Source: a bacterium
GTDB lineage: Bacteria > B130-G9
NCBI GenBank assembly: GCA_035527515.1
Contig: DATLAJ010000066.1
Location: forward strand, 1-33,564
DNA: 33,564 nt
Direction of reading: 5' to 3'
Part shown: positions 1 through 31,589 of the stretch, piece by piece
Numbering within the stretch: position 1 is the first letter of the stretch
Layout of the letters: each line of letters starts with the position of its first letter
The notes under the pieces: model-generated
Told to the model about the DNA's origin: nothing
The model's database searches: none
What the model saw: the letters and a program-made list of their open reading frames with translations, nothing else
Made by a program: the position numbers and the translations under genes

Positions 1-1280
1 CCTCCAGTTCACCGCCGATGACCAACTGCACGATCGGCGGCAACACGGCGAACTACTACGGCGGGGGCATCTTCTGCTCCTCCTCCAGTTCTCCGCCGAT
101 GACCAACTGCACGATCAGCAGCAACACGGCGAACTACCACGGCGGGGGCATCTACTGCTATGGCGTCTCCAGTTCACCGCCGATGACCAACTGCACGATC
201 AGCGGCAACACGGCCAAATACGGCGGCGGGGGCATCTACTGCGGCTCCTTCAGTTCTCCGACGATGACCGACTGCACGATCAGCGGTAACACGGCGCATG
301 AAGGGGGCGGGATCTACTGCGGCTCCATCAGTTCTCGGACGATGACCAACTGCATAATCAACGGTAACACCGCGACCGATAAGGGCGGCGGCATCGCTTG
401 CTACAACTCATCGCTGACGTTAACGAATTGCACAATTGCGGACAACAAGGCGGATTATGACGAGGATGGCACTGGCGACGGCGGCGGCATCTGTTGCGAG
501 ACGAACGGCTCATTAACGCTGACGAACTGCATCCTTTGGGGCGACACCGCGGGCGGCGCGCCGAATGAGATCAGCGAAGTCGATGCCGGCGCGGTAACCG
601 TCAGCTACTCTGATGTAGATCAGGATGGATATGGCCACTCCGACTCGTGCGATCCCGACTCAGACAGCAATATAAGGTGTGACCCGGAGTTCGTGCCGAC
701 TGCGGACCCGCCATACACATACTACCTGGCGCACACAGGGCCGCAGGCGGGCAACAGCCCCTGCGTGGACGCGGGCTTAGGCGAACTGAGCGACTACGAC
801 CTGGGAGCTGGAATCACCACGTGCACGGACGGCCATGAGGATGGTAATGACGACGGTAACGGGAGCACCGGGCCGATCGACATGGGCTACCACTATGAGG
901 GCGAATACACCGGTAGCGGAAACACCTACATCGAGCTGGTGTCCTTCACTGCGCGGCCGGTTGGCTCTAGCATAGTGCTCACCTGGGAAACCGGCGCCGA
1001 GATCGACAACGCTGGGTTCGTAATCTATCGGGCGATTGCGGGCACGCTCGATTATCAGCAGATAAGCGACCTGATCGCAGCTGAGGGCAGCCCAAGCCTT
1101 GGCGCCTCATACAGCTTCACCGACGGCAACGTCGAGCGGGGCGTTTCATACAACTACTGGCTGATTGACATCGAGACGAGCGGCAAGTGGACATCACACG
1201 GGCCAGTGTCGGTCAAATTGCCAGTGAGCCTCAAATTGATCGAACTGCCAACTGCCAACCGCTCGATAGGAGGTAGATAA
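1..1280 (+). CDS. Secreted parallel beta-helix repeat protein, 5'-truncated by the window edge
   Basis: The frame is open to the first base, so the true start lies upstream. The visible part, about 425 residues, begins with at least five near-identical units of about 27 residues built on 'MTNCTISGNTA...GGGIYC', a pattern typical of right-handed parallel beta-helix or polymorphic-outer-membrane-type repeats. More divergent coils follow. Next comes a segment ending in 'DMGYHYEG', a usual end of such helices. The C-terminal region of about 110 residues contains 'LVSFTARPVGSSIVLTWETG' and 'DNAGFVIYRA', which resembles the fibronectin-like tail often attached to exported surface proteins. No enzyme motif is visible, and adhesion, surface-layer or polysaccharide-binding roles are all possible. 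The signal peptide, if any, is outside the window. The C-terminal codons carry the ribosome binding site of the following 39-codon ORF. Confidence 0.85.
   Translation, partial: SSSPPMTNCTIGGNTANYYGGGIFCSSSSSPPMTNCTISSNTANYHGGGIYCYGVSSSPPMTNCTISGNTAKYGGGGIYCGSFSSPTMTDCTISGNTAHEGGGIYCGSISSRTMTNCIINGNTATDKGGGIACYNSSLTLTNCTIADNKADYDEDGTGDGGGICCETNGSLTLTNCILWGDTAGGAPNEISEVDAGAVTVSYSDVDQDGYGHSDSCDPDSDSNIRCDPEFVPTADPPYTYYLAHTGPQAGNSPCVDAGLGELSDYDLGAGITTCTDGHEDGNDDGNGSTGPIDMGYHYEGEYTGSGNTYIELVSFTARPVGSSIVLTWETGAEIDNAGFVIYRAIAGTLDYQQISDLIAAEGSPSLGASYSFTDGNVERGVSYNYWLIDIETSGKWTSHGPVSVKLPVSLKLIELPTANRSIGGR
3..400 (+). repeat. Tandem coding repeats of 78-84 bp in the beta-helix gene
   Basis: The core 'atgaccaactgcacgatc' or a close variant recurs at about 18, 99, 183, 264 and 342, giving periods of 81, 84, 81 and 78 bp, all multiples of three. 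DNA identity between units is high, including synonymous positions, which suggests recent expansion by unequal recombination or slippage rather than old protein-level repetition. Confidence 0.85.
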
Positions 1281-1282
1281 TA

Positions 1283-1402
1283 ATGAAGACGAATAACGTT
1301 TACGAGGCGCCGAGAGTTCAGACATTTGATAACGAGGCGCTGACTGCGGCGCTTGGCCCGAGCTTATCGTACACGGGCTTTGGCGGCTCGCTGAAATGCT
1401 GA
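1283..1402 (+). CDS. 39-residue peptide, RiPP-precursor-like
   Basis: This is a short ORF starting 2 nt after the stop of the beta-helix gene. An AGGAGG Shine-Dalgarno lies at 1268-1273, 9 nt before the ATG, which is strong support for translation and probably coupling to the upstream gene. The peptide has an N-terminal part with 'NVYEAPRVQTF' (Tyr7, Pro10, Val12), acidic residues at 16 and 18, then a Gly/Ser-rich end 'LGPSLSYTGFGG' and a final Cys39. The YxxPx(V/L) spacing resembles leader motifs recognised by RiPP recognition elements, for example in lasso peptide leaders. The C-terminal part lacks the acidic ring residue a lasso peptide needs. No maturation enzyme is adjacent inside the window. 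The RiPP assignment is an inference; it could also be a short anchor or regulatory peptide. Confidence 0.5.
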   Translation: MKTNNVYEAPRVQTFDNEALTAALGPSLSYTGFGGSLKC

Positions 1403-1679: not shown

Positions 1680-2594
1680 TCACGACCACGGGCCCGGCGC
1701 GCTCCACGTTCTGTCAAATGTGTCACCCGAGGCTAAAGCATTCGAAACCGGGAGAAGGAAGAGAGAGACAAGCTCAATGACATTTGCCAGTTCGTTCGGG
1801 GCATCGACTATGCGGGTTCTACGCAGGAATGCAGACCATTGTGCTTGCTTTGAGCTGTCTTTGGTGAATGCCTCTGTCAGCGCTACTGGCTGAGACGCGA
1901 TATCCGTTTCTCGATGCGCAAAGGTCTGCTTGATGGCCTCCGCCAGCGTTTCTCCGTCGAAGTCGAACTGAGTAGAAAGGAGCCAGATATCAAAGAAATC
2001 CTTCATCCGGCTGTTCACGATACCAAGCCTGACCATCGCCTCGAACTTCTCGGCAATGGCGCTTTCCCGCGTGTAACCATCAAGTCTTGGGGCCGGCATA
2101 CCCAGGATTGTTGGATAATCCACGGTAACGGGCTCGGGGACCACAACGTCTCCAAATGCCACGTCAACCTGCATGAAAATGCGGGCAGCTCCAAGTGTTC
2201 CACGGAAGCGAACCCGGACTCCCTCGTATGCAGCCGTCTCAATTATTCTCTGACCCTCAACACTATCCGCGTCGAACAGAAGACCGTCGGGCTCCACCTC
2301 TTGAACGCAAATGTCCTTTATCACGTTGACAAGATCGTCAACCTCGTTCCTTGTCCTTCCCAGCAGATCGATATCCCTTGTCGGGCGAGAGATCGGCGCT
2401 CCCCAGACTGCAAACATCGTGGCTCCCTTGATAATGAAGCTGGAAGCATACGAAGATTTGCTGAGCCTGTATAAGAACCGCTCCATTGCGAAATACTGTA
2501 GCCATTCGTTAAACGGCCGTCCGGATCTTCTCGACTTGTTGAGAAGTCGCTGCCGAACGGAGGCGGCCACATCCACAACCGGCAGTTTCGTCAA
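1680..2594 (-). CDS. AbiEii/AbiGii-family nucleotidyltransferase toxin
   Basis: This 304-residue protein is of the AbiEii toxin type, the nucleotidyltransferase partner of type IV toxin-antitoxin and abortive-infection systems. 'KGATMFAVW' at about 56-64 followed by 'RPTRDIDLLG' at 70-79 supplies the GG/GS-like turn and the Asp74-x-Asp76 metal motif. 'AEKFEAMV' (Lys183) and 'NSRMKDFFDIW' (194-204) match the later Lys and R-x-K-D-x-x-D elements of the family. The ATG overlaps the stop of the upstream antitoxin-like gene by 4 nt (ATGA), typical of translational coupling. The stop lies 11 bp from the boundary of the DUF362 direct repeat, so the last dozen residues may be junction-derived. Family members transfer nucleotides to tRNA or other targets; the target here is unknown. 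Confidence 0.85.
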   Translation of the reverse strand: MTKLPVVDVAASVRQRLLNKSRRSGRPFNEWLQYFAMERFLYRLSKSSYASSFIIKGATMFAVWGAPISRPTRDIDLLGRTRNEVDDLVNVIKDICVQEVEPDGLLFDADSVEGQRIIETAAYEGVRVRFRGTLGAARIFMQVDVAFGDVVVPEPVTVDYPTILGMPAPRLDGYTRESAIAEKFEAMVRLGIVNSRMKDFFDIWLLSTQFDFDGETLAEAIKQTFAHRETDIASQPVALTEAFTKDSSKQAQWSAFLRRTRIVDAPNELANVIELVSLFLLPVSNALASGDTFDRTWSAPGPWS

Positions 2595-3202
2595 AACAGC
2601 GCCTCAAGGTATGGCCGAATCACGTTGCTCACGCGGCAGATGCGGGCGAATTCCATGAGCTTGTCTATGCTGAAATCTCTGCGCGTTCGGCACTCTTTCA
2701 GCGCCTCAATCACGACGTCCAGGCCGATTTTGTTGCGGAACTTGAAGCAGTCGGCGACCGTCTTCTCCAGGCAATAGATGCGGACCGGCACACCGTCTAT
2801 CGGGTGTGTCTCTATCCCAGCAGAAAAGGCTTTCCGACTAAACCAGAACACGCGCACAGGGGGGTGCACAAGTCTTGGTGGCTCCGCTCCTTTGATCCGG
2901 GCTATGTGGACCTCATGGGGGACCTGCGTTGTTACCTCGAAAAAGGTCAGTGCCGAGATCAGGCAGATTACGGCCTCGGGTATTCTGAGCGCCACCGTCA
3001 CAAGGTCGGGGTTCCCGATAGGCGGTATGTTCGGAAGTCGATAGAGCCCGCGAGAGACCTTTTCCACAAGCCCGGCATCCCTCATCGCATAAAGTGTTCT
3101 GGGCTGGATACCTGTTTTGAGAGCATCCTTGGTACGCAGGATGCCACCAGAGTGGCAGAAAATGTCCTTTGCCTTTTGGAAGGCGTTTCTAGTCTTGGTC
3201 AT
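2591..3202 (-). CDS. AbiEi-family antitoxin and transcriptional autorepressor
   Basis: The protein has about 203 residues. An N-terminal winged-helix segment, 'GGILRTKDALKTGIQPRTLY' through 'VEKVSRGLYRLP', matches the AbiEi antitoxin N-terminal domain. A C-terminal half of the AbiEi type follows, with 'YCLEKTVADCFKFRNKIGLDVVIEAL'-like sequence. In characterised AbiE systems this protein represses its own operon and neutralises AbiEii without direct contact. I chose the ATG at 3202; the frame also opens at a TTG at 3217, but that has no visible ribosome binding site. A perfect 8-bp inverted repeat at 3233-3250 sits just upstream, as expected for an autoregulated operon. The gene overlaps the toxin gene by 4 nt. 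Confidence 0.82.
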   Translation of the reverse strand: MTKTRNAFQKAKDIFCHSGGILRTKDALKTGIQPRTLYAMRDAGLVEKVSRGLYRLPNIPPIGNPDLVTVALRIPEAVICLISALTFFEVTTQVPHEVHIARIKGAEPPRLVHPPVRVFWFSRKAFSAGIETHPIDGVPVRIYCLEKTVADCFKFRNKIGLDVVIEALKECRTRRDFSIDKLMEFARICRVSNVIRPYLEALF

Positions 3203-3232
3203 CTCTAGCCTGTCCAAAGCATAAAATTACCT

Positions 3233-3346: not shown

Positions 3347-4432
3347 TCAATAGCTCAGGAAGAGCCTCCCCCACTTGGTCTTGAGCGCCTCTTCGACGCG
3401 CTTCTTGCCGATGAAGGGGTACCAGTACCAGTCGTGGTAGATGATTGAGGCGGCGTATGACCAGGGGGCGAGGAAGGTTCGGAGGAGGAACTTCTCCGCG
3501 AAGTGCAGCGGGCCCCAGTATAGTGCCTTTTGGCCGCGGCTGGCGAAGGTGTTGGCTTTCTTCTGGAAGTGCCAATTGACCTCGGAGACGTCCTCACCGA
3601 CTATCTCGATTTCGTTGAAATCACCGCAGCCGAGGCCTTTCTCGTGCGCTATCCGGATGAACCTGATCTCAAGCGGGTCAAATCCCATCATGTGGGCGGA
3701 TACCGCGTCGATGGCAACCAGATCGGCGCTTGCGAGGATGTAGTCCTTGACGTGTGGGACCATGCATCTGGGCCCGGGGCCGTCCCCGGCGAAGGTGCCA
3801 TCCATCACGGCGAAGACGCCCGGGTGTATCTCCTTTTGAATGGTCAAGAGGTCAACAAGCGTCTCGTGAATCACGGAGTGTGTCCAGTGACGCTTCTCGT
3901 GTAATAGGCCGCCGAATGCGTTCTTCATTGCGCCCGTCATCGTCGTGAAGATGTGGGTCTTGATCGTGGGGAGCTGGATGATGTTGCTGCCGATGAGGCG
4001 CTTGGGTATCTGGATGCCGTTCTTGAAGATGTCAAACAGCGCGAGAATCTCGCCCTTGGGGTGGTAGGTTACCCACTCTTCGTCTTTCTCGTAAAGATGG
4101 ATGTTGCGGATGCCGTATTTCTCAAGGACTGGCTTGTGCTTGTTGGCGACCTCCCCTTTCTTGGTGGAGACAACGACGGTCCGATTGTGGGCGCCGTATA
4201 GCGAGTCGGCGGAATAGCCGTCCGCAAGCATTGTCTTAATGACGCCCTCGAGCTGCCAGGGCGTGGTTGAGCAGGCAGGATAGAAGACCTGCCAGGACAC
4301 GTTGATCTTGAGGGCGGTCTCCTTATCCTTCGGCAGATAGCTCTGGTAATTGGCCATCCGCATGAGCTTTGCGTAGTCGTCCAGAACCGTTTCTGGTTGA
4401 GTTTTCAAGACAGCGACGACTGGTTTAGCCAT
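3347..4432 (-). CDS. DUF362 domain-containing protein
   Basis: The protein has about 361 residues and a DUF362-like order: 'ALKINVSW' near the N terminus, 'LPTIKTHIFTTMTGAMKNAFGG' in the middle, 'VMDGTF' and 'ADLVAIDAVSAHMMG' further on, then an aromatic-rich C-terminal tail ('YHDWYWYPF'). No ferredoxin-like CxxCxxC cluster is present, unlike some DUF362 proteins. The biochemical function of this family is not established. I chose the ATG at 4432, which overlaps the leuD stop by 8 nt and is preceded by AAGGGAAC; the frame extends upstream to 4480 inside leuD, which is less likely. It is co-directional with leuC and leuD. The last 172 bp of coding sequence are duplicated at 1497-1668, beyond the toxin-antitoxin pair. 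Confidence 0.82.
   Translation of the reverse strand: MAKPVVAVLKTQPETVLDDYAKLMRMANYQSYLPKDKETALKINVSWQVFYPACSTTPWQLEGVIKTMLADGYSADSLYGAHNRTVVVSTKKGEVANKHKPVLEKYGIRNIHLYEKDEEWVTYHPKGEILALFDIFKNGIQIPKRLIGSNIIQLPTIKTHIFTTMTGAMKNAFGGLLHEKRHWTHSVIHETLVDLLTIQKEIHPGVFAVMDGTFAGDGPGPRCMVPHVKDYILASADLVAIDAVSAHMMGFDPLEIRFIRIAHEKGLGCGDFNEIEIVGEDVSEVNWHFQKKANTFASRGQKALYWGPLHFAEKFLLRTFLAPWSYAASIIYHDWYWYPFIGKKRVEEALKTKWGRLFLSY
3369..3540. repeat. 172-bp direct repeat, copy 2 (right flank of the AbiE-like module)
   Basis: This copy lies inside the intact DUF362 gene and encodes its C-terminal residues. Together with 1497-1668 it brackets about 1.7 kb holding the toxin-antitoxin pair. Confidence 0.9.
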
Positions 4433-5082: not shown

Positions 5083-6327
5083 TCATTCTGGAACTCGTAT
5101 CTCACCGTAAATCGCCGAATAGGCCGCGACAACTGGGCTGGCTAGATAAGTCTCGCCCTCGCCCTGCTTGCCCAGGAAGTTGCGGTTACCGGTGCTTATT
5201 TGCACCTCGCCCCTACCGGTCATGCCGGCCTGGCCAGCCGCACAGCCGGCGCAGCCAGGGTTGAGTATTATGGCTCCGGCGTCGTATAGTTTTGAGAGTA
5301 TGCCGTCCTTCAATAGGCGGCCATAGATCGCCCTTGTCGTGGGCGCTATTCTCAGCATGAGATCTCTCTTGACCTTCCGACCCTCCAGGATGCTCGCCGC
5401 AATGCTGATGTCCTCGTATCGGCCATTGGTGCAAGAGCCGATCAAGACCGAGTCAATCCGCGTTCCGGCAACTTCGGACACATCCACCACCGAGCAAGGG
5501 TTGCCCGGAAGGGCTATCTTGGGCCTAAGCTCCGAGACATCGATCTCAAGCTCCCGCGCATAAACTGCCCCATCGCCGGGCGAGGCGATCAGCCCTTGGC
5601 GATCGGCCTTGTCAATTCCTAGTTCGTCCAACACTTCGTCATTGGGCGCGATCAGCCCCGCAACGCCGCCCGCCTCAGTAATGAGGCTTGAGAGCGTAAT
5701 ACGGCCCGAAAGGCCGAGCGCATCGACCGCATTTCCGCCGAACTCTATGGCCATACCGAGCGCCCCTGAGGGCCCAATGGTTCCCAAGAGATGAAGCGCG
5801 AGGTCCTTGGCGGTTACCGGGAACCCGAAACCGCCGGACATCATGACGCGCAGCGTCTCGGGCACCTTGAACCAGACCTTTCGCGTTTTGAAAGCAAACG
5901 CCGAGTCCCGGTCGCCCATCCCAAGGCCTAGCGCGCCAACAGCGCCGAGGAGGTTCAGATGGCTATCGGTTCCTGTGACCGTCGAGCCAGGCAGGCAGTG
6001 CCCCTCGTCGATGAGCACGTGCGAACCAATGCCACCGTTGACGTCGTAAACACGTATCCCGTGCTTTTTGGCGAATATGCGAATGGTCTGCTGGTTGTTA
6101 GCGTACCCGATCGTGTTGGCAGGCGCCTGACAGTCGAATGTAAATAGCGTTCCGGACGGGTCCAGGACAGGATTCTCCGGATACTCACGCTCAAGGTGCG
6201 CCACGACGTTTGCGCCGCCGAAATCGCGCGCCGTAACAAGGTCGAGCGAGAGCCAGACGACATCGCCCGGCTTGGCCTCAGCTAGCGTGTGCGCCGAGAC
6301 TATTCTCTCGATGAGTGTCTTAGCCAA
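5083..6327 (-). CDS. leuC: Isopropylmalate dehydratase-type large subunit (LeuC/homoaconitase family)
   Basis: This 414-residue protein is of the shorter LeuC class found in archaea and many bacteria. It opens with 'KTLIERIVSAHT', has 'TVTGTDSHLNLLGAVGALGLG' mid-protein, and carries the three 4Fe-4S ligands Cys299 ('IGSCTNGR'), Cys359 and Cys362 ('NPGCAGCAAG'). 'STGNRNFLGKQG' near residues 378-389 is the usual final active-site loop. The start is TTG at 6327, with GAGG at about 6336-6340 upstream. The enzyme isomerises a 2-hydroxy acid by dehydration and rehydration together with the adjacent LeuD-type subunit. Substrate choice between isopropylmalate, homoaconitate and related acids cannot be fixed from sequence. 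Confidence 0.9.
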   Translation of the reverse strand: MAKTLIERIVSAHTLAEAKPGDVVWLSLDLVTARDFGGANVVAHLEREYPENPVLDPSGTLFTFDCQAPANTIGYANNQQTIRIFAKKHGIRVYDVNGGIGSHVLIDEGHCLPGSTVTGTDSHLNLLGAVGALGLGMGDRDSAFAFKTRKVWFKVPETLRVMMSGGFGFPVTAKDLALHLLGTIGPSGALGMAIEFGGNAVDALGLSGRITLSSLITEAGGVAGLIAPNDEVLDELGIDKADRQGLIASPGDGAVYARELEIDVSELRPKIALPGNPCSVVDVSEVAGTRIDSVLIGSCTNGRYEDISIAASILEGRKVKRDLMLRIAPTTRAIYGRLLKDGILSKLYDAGAIILNPGCAGCAAGQAGMTGRGEVQISTGNRNFLGKQGEGETYLASPVVAAYSAIYGEIRVPE

Positions 6328-9693: not shown

Positions 9694-11096
9694 TAATACG
9701 CGTTCTTCTGGTTCAAAGCTCTCGTGACCGTGCGAAACAGTATTTTGAAGTCCATTGACAAGGACCAGTTCTCAATGTAGTAAAGGTCGCTCTTTAGCCG
9801 CTTGCGCATTGACGTGTCGCCCCGCCAGCCATTGACCTGCGCAAGGCCAGTCATCCCTGACTTCACCTTGTGCCTCAACATGTAGTGCGGTATCGTGTTC
9901 CTGAACTCATCGACGAACGCTGGCTGCTCGGGCCTTGGCCCCACAATGCTCATATCCCCCTTAAACACGTTGCAGAATTGAGGTATCTCATCGATGCTGA
10001 ACCGCCGCAGCACCGCCCCGAACCTCGTTACCCTGGGGTCGTTCTTGGTCGTCCATTCTCGCCCGCTCTGGTCCGCTCCATCAACCATTGTCCTAAACTT
10101 GAACATCGTGAACGACTTGCCATCGAGCCCCATCCGGTCCTGTTTGTAAAAAACGGGGCCCCTCGAGGTGCATTTGATAACTACCGAGACCACAAGTAGA
10201 ACCGGCGAAAGCACCACAAGCGCCGCGGCCGATAACGCCAGGTCCTCCAATCGCTTCAGCCTGTACCTCCACCCTGATAGCGGAGTATAGGTCAGGTTAA
10301 CGATAGGAATCCCGTCGAGTTCCTCCACGTAGGAGCGGAGCATGATGTGCTGCAAGATATCTGGGGCGATCTTTATGTCTATCAACGTGTCCTTAAGGTC
10401 ATGCAAGAGCTTGCTCAACGTCTTGTGCTGAGAAAAGGGAAGCGTGATCAGAACCTGATCCGCGCCCAACTCACTGGCGAGGCGCCTCGTCTCCTGAATG
10501 CGGCCAACTATCTTCACATCGTCCCCGACTCTCTCCCCAATTCTTTTGGAATTGTCAACAGCACCGACTATCTTGAGGCCGACATAAGGGTTCTCCTCTA
10601 TCTTGTGAATTACGTTCTTCGCAAGCTCTCCGCCGCCAACTATCAGCAAGCGCCGCAAGTTGTAGCCCGCCTTTCTCAGGTGAGCAAGAACGCTCCGCAA
10701 ACCCATCCTGAACGAGGCAATGGCCGCGATGTCAAGAAACAAGAAAATCAGCAACACACCTCTTGAGAAGAGGTAATCACGATACATGTAGCCCAAGCCC
10801 ATCAATACGAACACTGACAGAATAACCACATAGATTATCTTGAAGAACTCATCGACCCTGGGCTTGAGCCTTCTCGGCCTATACAGGCCTGCTATGCTGA
10901 ACGTGGCTATCCACAGGGCAGCGATCGCGCTCAGCACGATAGGGCCAGTATAGAGCCTAATGTCCGGTATCCCCGCTGGCGCTTCAAATATCGTATAGAA
11001 GCGAATATAGTACGCCGCGATAAATGCGCCTATGGTCGCCGCAACGTCGCAAATAGCGAAGAGAAAAAGGACTGCTCGGTGATGTTCCTTCAACAT
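9693..11096 (-). CDS. Polyprenyl glycosylphosphotransferase (exopolysaccharide initiating enzyme)
   Basis: The 467-residue protein has four or five N-terminal membrane segments in about the first 130 residues, a cytoplasmic Rossmann-like domain ('LLIVGGGELAK' at 150-160), another membrane segment near 287-308, and the bacterial sugar transferase domain. That domain contains 'FYKQDRMGLDG' (317-327), 'FKFRTMVDGAD' (332-342), 'FSIDEIPQ' (366-373) and 'GDMSIVGPRPEQPAF' (380-394). Such enzymes transfer a sugar-1-phosphate, often glucose, galactose or an amino sugar, from a UDP-sugar to undecaprenyl phosphate to begin repeat-unit assembly. A GGAG-containing ribosome binding site lies 8 nt before the ATG. 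It is the first gene of the operon with the PfkB kinase. Confidence 0.93.
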   Translation of the reverse strand: MLKEHHRAVLFLFAICDVAATIGAFIAAYYIRFYTIFEAPAGIPDIRLYTGPIVLSAIAALWIATFSIAGLYRPRRLKPRVDEFFKIIYVVILSVFVLMGLGYMYRDYLFSRGVLLIFLFLDIAAIASFRMGLRSVLAHLRKAGYNLRRLLIVGGGELAKNVIHKIEENPYVGLKIVGAVDNSKRIGERVGDDVKIVGRIQETRRLASELGADQVLITLPFSQHKTLSKLLHDLKDTLIDIKIAPDILQHIMLRSYVEELDGIPIVNLTYTPLSGWRYRLKRLEDLALSAAALVVLSPVLLVVSVVIKCTSRGPVFYKQDRMGLDGKSFTMFKFRTMVDGADQSGREWTTKNDPRVTRFGAVLRRFSIDEIPQFCNVFKGDMSIVGPRPEQPAFVDEFRNTIPHYMLRHKVKSGMTGLAQVNGWRGDTSMRKRLKSDLYYIENWSLSMDFKILFRTVTRALNQKNAY

Positions 11097-29680: not shown

Positions 29681-31525
29681 TCAAGGCAGTTGGTTTGCTT
29701 TCGTCCACGATTCGAAGGGAATGGGATAATGGTATCCCAAATCGACGGTCCAAAAGTCCGGCGTGCTGCGAGCTTGCGTGGTCATATATAAAAGCCCCGC
29801 ATCGTCCGGGGAGCAGCTACCAGCGTCAACGCATGGGCTATTGGGGTCCAGATAATAGTGACCATAGGGCCCGTCCACAAACAGCGGGTCGGCGTGGATG
29901 TTGCCCTCGCCCTCGTCGGGGTCCTGGACACAGCAATATCTGGCCGTGCAGTTGTAGAGGTCATCCCCGTTGTTCCAGATGATGGAGTCCGTGATCTCGG
30001 AGGGCCCGTAGCTCCAGACTCCCCCACCGAGCCCCCCCGCAACGTTGTCCGCGATGGTGTTATTCTGAAACTCCGTAGGTGGATAATCACAGACCACACC
30101 GCCGCCGTCCAGCCCGGCGCTGTTCAGCGCGATTAAGTTGTTCGATATGATCTCTGCGTATTCACTAAGGATCCCGCCGCCATTGTGTTGGGATGAATTC
30201 TCTATAACGTAGTTACTGAATATGATGATGCTGGTCGCGGCCGTGTATAACCCGCCACCGCTGAGATCTGCGCTGTTGTGCTCAATCGTGTTACTCTGGA
30301 CAGAGGCGTAACTGCACCAGCAGAATACACCGCCTCCGTGAGATCCAGCCGAGTTATCGGCGATCAAGTTGCCAAACACCAGGATCGTATGCCGGTAGTT
30401 GTATATTCCCCCTCCCTCGTCGGCTGAATTACCTCGTATCGTGTTGCACAATACTCCCACCCAGCTTGAGTACGAGCAGCATACCGCGCCACCCCGGCCG
30501 TCGCAGGAGTTACCCTCAATGGCGTTGTTCTGGATGGTCAGAGGGCATTCGGAGTATATCCCGCCTCCGGAATTAGTCGCGTGATTGCCTGATATTACGT
30601 TGTCTCTGACCATAGGCCAACCGCCGCCGCAGAATATCCCACCGCCATTTTGTGCCGAGTTGCCAGTAATAGTGTTGTTCGCGACCGTACAAGAAGCCGG
30701 GCACCACCGATTCTGGGTCTCGCAGTATATCCCTCCACCATCCTTGCTTTTGCCGCCTGTTATCATGAATCCCTCTATCGTCCAGTCATCGACGTAGTAA
30801 CCCCAGATTACGTTGGCCGCGGACTCAGCGTCCAGAACCGTGACGTCTGCGCCGTCGCCGACAAGCGAGACCCAGCTCTTCATGTTAAGCGGGAACGTCT
30901 CGCCGTTGGTGGAGGTAGAATACACGCCGGCCGCGACGTGGATGGTTGCTGGCGCGGCGGGCGAGGCCACGACCGAGTTCAAGGCGTGCGTAATCGTCTT
31001 CCAGGGCAGGTCCTCAGAGCCATCATACCACTCGTAATCCTCTCCTAGTGCGGCGTCAACGTAGTAATCCACGCCCGTAACGGAGAAGACCGTAAATGTC
31101 CCAAAACTGGCCTCACAGACCCAGTTGAATGTGCCCGGTTCGGTCAGGACCGCGGCGAAGGAATACTCGCCAGGGTCTGCGATTGGCGGCATTCCGGAGG
31201 GCAGATCGAACGAGAAAAAGCGCTTTTGGTTCATGGTGAACCCCGCCGGCACGTAGATGCCCTCAATCCACGGGTTGATCGCCTCGGACCAGTACCAGCC
31301 GCATGTCCAGAGCGAGCCGTTGGGCGTCAGCAGACCGATATAAACGTCAACGGACATCCCCTCGCCCTGATTATCCCCCGCCAGGCTCACCTCAATCGTG
31401 TCGCCCGCCTTGTAGCTGTCCCTATCGGTTTCGATGAATACCTGAGGCGCCGCTGTTGACAGAGCCGGCAGGATTGCCAGAAGCATGATGGTAACGATAA
31501 TCAAGCCGAAAACACGTATCTTCAT
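29681..31525 (-). CDS. Secreted right-handed beta-helix protein with DUF1565-like region
   Basis: The protein has 614 residues from the ATG at 31525, which is preceded by GGAGGG at 7 nt; the frame also opens at 31570. A signal peptide, 'MKIRVFGLIIVTIMLLAILP' with cleavage expected after 'ALSTAA', is followed by a beta-sandwich-like domain ('FIETDRDSYKAGDTIEVSLA'). 'VDYYVDAALGEDYEWYDGSE' and 'PWKTITHALNSV' then form a DUF1565-like entry segment. Some twelve coils of the type 'NTITGNSAQNGGGIFCG' follow, ending 'TVDLGYHYPIP'. The coils resemble those of the gene at the left edge, but their DNA is not near-identical. The protein probably lies on the cell surface or is secreted; no catalytic motif is apparent. 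Confidence 0.9.
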   Translation of the reverse strand: MKIRVFGLIIVTIMLLAILPALSTAAPQVFIETDRDSYKAGDTIEVSLAGDNQGEGMSVDVYIGLLTPNGSLWTCGWYWSEAINPWIEGIYVPAGFTMNQKRFFSFDLPSGMPPIADPGEYSFAAVLTEPGTFNWVCEASFGTFTVFSVTGVDYYVDAALGEDYEWYDGSEDLPWKTITHALNSVVASPAAPATIHVAAGVYSTSTNGETFPLNMKSWVSLVGDGADVTVLDAESAANVIWGYYVDDWTIEGFMITGGKSKDGGGIYCETQNRWCPASCTVANNTITGNSAQNGGGIFCGGGWPMVRDNVISGNHATNSGGGIYSECPLTIQNNAIEGNSCDGRGGAVCCSYSSWVGVLCNTIRGNSADEGGGIYNYRHTILVFGNLIADNSAGSHGGGVFCWCSYASVQSNTIEHNSADLSGGGLYTAATSIIIFSNYVIENSSQHNGGGILSEYAEIISNNLIALNSAGLDGGGVVCDYPPTEFQNNTIADNVAGGLGGGVWSYGPSEITDSIIWNNGDDLYNCTARYCCVQDPDEGEGNIHADPLFVDGPYGHYYLDPNSPCVDAGSCSPDDAGLLYMTTQARSTPDFWTVDLGYHYPIPFESWTKANQLP

Positions 31526-31589
31526 GTCGATACCCTCCATAAAAGAGACAAGAGCATAATTCAACCGCATCGGTCTCCTAATCTACTAG

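Follow-up and report, generated by a model that had tools for sequence, protein, structure and literature searches.

The peptide gene and its surroundings

The window analysed here (33,564 nucleotides) is the entire contig G000:C66 of a 3.47-Mb genome in 183 contigs, which belongs to the same genus as G001, another genome used in this study. The gene P0001 encodes the 39-residue peptide MKTNNVYEAPRVQTFDNEALTAALGPSLSYTGFGGSLKC, which carries Y7, P10 and V12 (Table 1). Its ATG at 1283 follows the TAA stop codon of a beta-helix frame (1278-1280) after a gap of 2 nt. The sequence of the ORF, its position behind a repeat protein and the AGGAGG in front of it proved to be exactly as given in the first-pass annotation. 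The large upstream protein is indeed a secreted beta-helix partner, but its gene is incomplete at the contig start, because the window is the whole contig. The peptide tail ends in Cys, as had been described, but the tails of most relatives hold two cysteines (Cys30 and the terminal one). The window copy is not the best representative of the family, since Tyr replaces the core Cys30.

The window codes for a second beta-helix protein (29681-31570), which lacks both the C-terminal domain (CTD) described below and a peptide gene. An AbiEii/AbiEi toxin-antitoxin pair (1680-3217) stands between the two copies of a 194-nt direct repeat (1475-1668 and 3347-3540, 93% identical) that duplicates the end of a DUF362 gene, which looks like the outcome of an insertion of the pair with target duplication.

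Table 1 Features of the peptide locus (window) and of the candidate maturation operon in the same genome (G000, locus L078)
Feature	Location	Coordinates	Strand	Basis or remark
Secreted beta-helix partner gene, 5' end missing	Window	3..1280	+	Pfam Beta_helix, 5.2e-17
FN3-like CTD common to the partners	Window	924..1217	+	Profile A3, 159 bits; model pLDDT 91
Ribosome binding site AGGAGG	Window	1268..1273	+	9 nt upstream of the ATG, within the final codons of the preceding gene; similar in 26/27 copies
Precursor-like peptide gene P0001, 39 codons	Window	1283..1402 (with stop codon)	+	27 full-length homologues, 4/4 genomes
Leader half, residues 1-24	Window	1283..1354	+	Alignment of 27 copies; putative leader/core border
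Leader motif Y7-x-x-P10-x-V12	Window	1301-1318	+	Fits the RRE-binding consensus given in PMC13381572
Core half, residues 25-39 (GPSLSYTGFGGSLKC)	Window	1355..1399	+	Alignment of copies
Tyr30 of the window copy	Window	1370-1372	+	Cys in 25/27 copies
Signal peptidase	L078	2177-2800	Operon strand	Nearest to archaeal-type signal peptidase I, below curated cut-off
PorU-like C25 protease	L078	3095-6355	Operon strand	Resembles gingipains and PorU
HprK-like kinase	L078	6372-7610	Operon strand	HprK-related, below curated cut-off
RRE-radical SAM-SPASM enzyme	L078	7636-9027	Operon strand	Pfam Radical_SAM and SPASM above cut-off
Discrete RRE	L078	9055-9342	Operon strand	PqqD-type, above cut-off

A conserved peptide family

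Within its own genome, the window peptide had matches at six other places. A family profile built on six copies was searched in four genomes of the phylum (Candidatus Coatesbacteria) and gave 7, 2, 15 and 5 matches, respectively, so that none of the four was without a match. These comprise 27 full-length copies, including that of the window, and two remnants (G000:C74 and G002:C354). The window's own genome holds six full-length copies and one remnant, and up to 14 full-length copies occur in a single genome. The absence of homologues at other loci, which the first-pass annotation had named as a sign of chance, was thus not what was found. The motif GPS[LIV]SCTGF was matched by 22 stretches in the GTDB genome collection, and 15 of these could be confirmed. 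They represent 14 loci, of which 13 lie in three assemblies (two of Candidatus Coatesbacteria and one of 'bacterium AUK292') and one on a phage contig. The peptide was without a match in Pfam and NCBIfam (five sequences tested against each).

Six residues (P10, G25, S29, T31, F33 and G34) are invariant in the alignment of the 27 copies, and Y7, E8, V12, T14, P26, S27, C30, G32, G35 and C39 are nearly so. The consensus consists of the leader motif YExPxV and the core GPS[LIV]SCTGFGGS, in its longer form GPSxSCTGFGGSxxC. Codon comparisons were done on 26 copies, the degenerate copy G002:C209:5622 being left out. The core (12 codons) gave pS 0.667, pN 0.084 and pN/pS 0.126, the leader (24 codons) pS 0.698, pN 0.376 and pN/pS 0.54. 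The synonymous sites of the core codons are near saturation while the protein is conserved, and Ser27 is encoded by both serine codon blocks among the copies. Judged by these substitution patterns, both leader and core are under purifying selection. Shine-Dalgarno-like sequences, whose inequality among homologues would have spoken for chance, precede 26 of the 27 copies, and the sole copy lacking one is the degenerate one. On this sequence evidence, P0001 is a real gene and a member of a many-copy family.

Partner proteins share a C-terminal domain

A domain model (A3) made from the C-termini of the partner proteins gave 54 matches (12, 7, 21 and 14 in the four genomes), here called CTD places. 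Every full-length peptide gene (27/27) lies on the same strand as a CTD place and at most 2.2 kb from it, behind it in 22 cases (19 of them within 190 nt) and before it in five. The contigs with the two remnants carry no CTD place. As the copies are paralogues, the 27 pairings are not independent; tandem and paralogous copies are found in G002:C209 and G000:C14. Peptide genes rarely occur near low-scoring CTD places, and several high-scoring ones have no peptide on their contig (e.g. G000:C106, G000:C135, G002:C155 and G003:C59). The CTD was modelled as an FN3/Ig-like sandwich, and the nearest solved structures found by fold search were only generic FN3/Ig folds.

Among the partners are beta-helix proteins, C25 proteases (or proteins with a C25 propeptide) and a papain-family protease. 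The first-pass annotation was right in seeing an unusual pairing with a secreted protein, but not in taking the beta-helix as such for the partner: the constant partner is the CTD, because the same peptide also adjoins CTD-bearing C25 and papain-type proteases.

CTD proteins with a peptide end in Arg or Lys more often (22/27) than unpaired ones (8/17; Fisher p 0.02), in a count with labels assigned by hand and 8 of 52 proteins omitted (six with tails of more than 100 residues, L050:7423 and L145:630). As a pairing signal, a C-terminal Arg/Lys was rejected: it is weak, and in some copies it is explained by the ribosome binding site of the peptide gene in the last codons. A CTD subclass (L132, L134 and L135) consists of proteins ending in MDTNGV or MDTFGV, with no peptide on the contig.

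A candidate maturation operon elsewhere in the genomes

PqqD-type RREs above the cut-off were found in all four genomes, in each as a discrete RRE in tandem with an RRE fused to a radical SAM-SPASM enzyme. All five operon genes of G000 share one strand, and G003 has the same gene order. The contig of G001 stops before the signal peptidase, the other operon genes being present, and in G002 the operon is divided over two contigs with the break inside the kinase gene; the signal peptidase was therefore seen in three of the four genomes. The CxxxCxxC motif and seven SPASM cysteines of the radical SAM enzyme are kept in all four. Its likeness among solved structures is to the anaerobic sulfatase-maturating enzyme, SkfB and PqqE, and no NCBIfam equivalog cut-off was reached among the best 25 of the 82 matches listed. 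The C25 enzyme scored at best 255-267 bits per genome against the PorU model, below the cut-off of 420. The His of GHG and the Cys of CLNG, aligned with gingipain R and kept in 4/4 genomes, are presumably its catalytic residues. Its AlphaFold2 model had a pLDDT of 48. A second PorU-like C25 protein occurs in each genome (L118-L121; G000:C120, G001:C222, G002:C179 and G003:C118), and no RRE-like neighbour was noticed in its surroundings in G000, G002 and G003.

No member of the peptide family lies inside the operon in the four genomes, and no other precursor was recognised by eye near it. An NTP transferase and a transporter were not seen by eye among the operon neighbours at the two loci L078 and L082. 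No YcaO was found in the four genomes (control positive in 5/14), and a YcaO product was rejected on this ground.

The first-pass annotation had proposed a RiPP-like layout, its leader being of the RRE-bound type, and this found good support: both YExPxV and the Gly/Ser/Thr core are retained among the homologues, and the RREs stand beside or fused to a radical SAM-SPASM enzyme. The idea that homologues with the leader motif and the Gly-rich tail might lie beside beta-helix genes or beside radical SAM, YcaO or RRE genes applies to some copies as regards the former and to none as regards the latter: no copy adjoins a gene for a modification enzyme. A pairing without such an enzyme, which had been called unusual, is thus real locally at every copy but not genome-wide, a conserved candidate operon being present elsewhere in each genome. 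Because all four genomes have both the peptides and the operon, never adjacent, the link between the two is made here without a negative control.

A peptide copy on a phage contig

A 67-kb phage contig (G004:C290), binned as a deltaproteobacterium, carries the peptide copy MRYEPPLIITIDNAVLAAAIGPSISCTGFGGAVNCD. Its genes include those for portal, major head protein, terminase, helicase and endolysin, and where the two were compared it hardly differs from an IMG/VR record. The start of the peptide gene (L062, about 9997-10107) overlaps with the stop codon of a gene for a 950-aa protein, which lies in the structural region. The 950-aa protein had no credible family match, and its relatives in viral contigs belong to the same phage only. 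The CTD was not detected among the ORFs of the 20-kb phage locus, a tblastn search of the phage collection gave one chance-level match to the phage peptide, and the PqqD domain is absent from the bin holding the contig. Compared as DNA, the locus had matches in three of the four Coatesbacteria genomes; all of these fell on peptide genes or remnants, the best at 81% over 78 nt. These sequence matches suggest that the peptide gene was captured by a phage of a related, candidate host. An exact 41-nt direct repeat (5706-5746 and 6227-6267 of L062) was noticed via cross-matches between the two records of the phage.

Discussion

A ribosomal precursor with leader and core, as defines RiPPs, is present: the peptides have a conserved leader motif, a variable linker and a near-invariant core. 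Candidate modifying enzymes with a peptide-binding domain occur in all four genomes at a distance from the peptides, to which we link them by inference. Since the leader fits the RRE consensus, maturation in trans by the operon would be the most economical account. We consider it probable, with some reserve, that P0001 is one of many near-identical precursors of an undescribed RiPP-like system matured in trans, the product of which would serve the adjacent surface protein. The RREs would hold the leader through YExPxV. Modification of the core GPSxSCTGFGGSxxC, probably at Cys and Ser/Thr, would be the task of the radical SAM enzyme and possibly also of the kinase; the conserved Ser/Thr residues might be sites for the kinase and Cys the site for the radical SAM enzyme. 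The leader would be cut off by the signal-peptidase-like protein, and the mature product would act on or with the co-encoded surface protein. Against this explanation stand the window copy without Cys30, the several CTD genes without a nearby peptide and the phage copy, which follows a gene without a CTD. The separate positions of peptide genes and operon, the lack of a negative control, the paralogy of the copies and the NTP transferase and transporter of LPP not seen by eye around L078 and L082 also count against it.

In analogy to what PorU does in type IX secretion, the modified peptide might be joined to the CTD proteins by the C25 enzyme. This is the most attractive and the least supported step, and we regard it as rather improbable. 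It is unlikely that the peptide is a covalent or tightly bound surface-protein tag, with an own precursor for each CTD protein, one central operon, PorU-like ligation and a virion protein tagged as well.

The operon and leader evidence would be identical if the precursor gave rise to a free signal, cofactor or antimicrobial and lay behind surface-protein genes for shared expression only. Almost one core across all copies would also fit such a product, but it would be hard to understand why a genome should then have as many as 14 full-length copies with hardly differing cores, each beside a CTD gene of its own, and a transporter was not seen among the operon neighbours at L078 and L082; we hold a free product to be improbable. 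The strictness of the CTD pairing and the distance of the peptide genes from the enzymes would suit an unmodified small partner of the CTD proteins (e.g. a chaperone, inhibitor or secretion helper), with the RRE-radical SAM operon acting on other substrates. This is still less probable, as the part conserved at the end consists of a short run of Gly/Ser/Cys, the leader matches the RRE consensus and near the operon no other precursor was recognised by eye.

The pairing could also reflect repeated co-duplication of a CTD gene with its peptide as a spreading gene pair, the peptide having little function at most loci. The tandem and paralogous copies, the two remnants and the degenerate copy are in agreement with this, but the low pN/pS of the core, the different folds of the partners and the occurrence of both gene orders make it very unlikely. 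A chance ORF, which the shortness of P0001 might suggest and a single copy alone would not rule out, is refuted by the 27 conserved homologues with their ribosome binding sites and by purifying selection on the core, and its probability is practically negligible.

Searches for RiPP precursors usually look next to the enzymes, and the precursors are interpreted as natural products. In the present case, scattered precursor-like genes with nearly identical cores are each tied to a surface protein, and the candidate enzymes are in a single distant operon. If the proposed trans maturation is true, the display or anchoring of proteins would be a purpose of peptide modification, and such systems would escape cluster-based mining. 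The available parts of the literature on radical SAM enzymes with gingipain, on RiPPs with beta-helix proteins or sortase, on RiPPs with phage structural proteins and on trans precursors contained no description of such a system.

Comparison with known systems

According to PMC13381572, RREs bind leaders with [Y/W]xxPx[L/V/I/A/F/Y], and the pathway of linear polyphosphorylated peptides (LPP) of Bacillota combines a discrete RRE, an HprK-like kinase and an archaeal-type signal peptidase, which removes the leader. These three components occur together here as well (the peptidase in three of the four genomes), as does a YxxPxV leader. The LPP leader given there is YxxPxVLxHQxIxFETxxS, of which only the YxxPxV part is present in our family. 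Beyond the LPP components, the system described here has a radical SAM-SPASM enzyme fused to an RRE and a C25 protease of the PorU-like kind; its operon contains no precursor, and many scattered copies share one core. The NTP transferase and MsbA-like transporter of LPP clusters were not seen by eye around L078 and L082.

With sactipeptides, ranthipeptides, PQQ and mycofactocin, the system shares an RRE-fused radical SAM-SPASM maturase with CxxxCxxC and seven SPASM cysteines, and core Cys (two in most copies), whereas its precursors adjoin surface-protein genes and not the enzyme. Lasso peptides have a similar leader motif and RRE type, and a lasso locus (HprK-like kinase, B2, RRE and cyclase) lies in one of the four genomes (L079, G000:C54, 1132-4815), with no precursor recognised by eye. 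A lasso precursor was rejected: positions 7-9 from Gly25 hold Thr, Gly and Phe and no ring Asp/Glu, and a lasso-type RRE occurs in 1/4 genomes only.

Type IX secretion has in common with our system that secreted proteins, C25 proteases among them, carry an Ig/FN3-like domain at the C-terminus, and that there is a PorU-like C25 enzyme in which His and Cys are conserved, here below the curated PorU cut-off. PorV gave a weak match below the cut-off in one of the four genomes; SprA matched in none of them, and the controls matched nowhere either. PMC8545088 ascribes to the type IX secretion enzyme PorU a role in the cleavage of a C-terminal domain and the attachment of A-LPS. A modified peptide in the place of A-LPS, as we may speculate, would be new.
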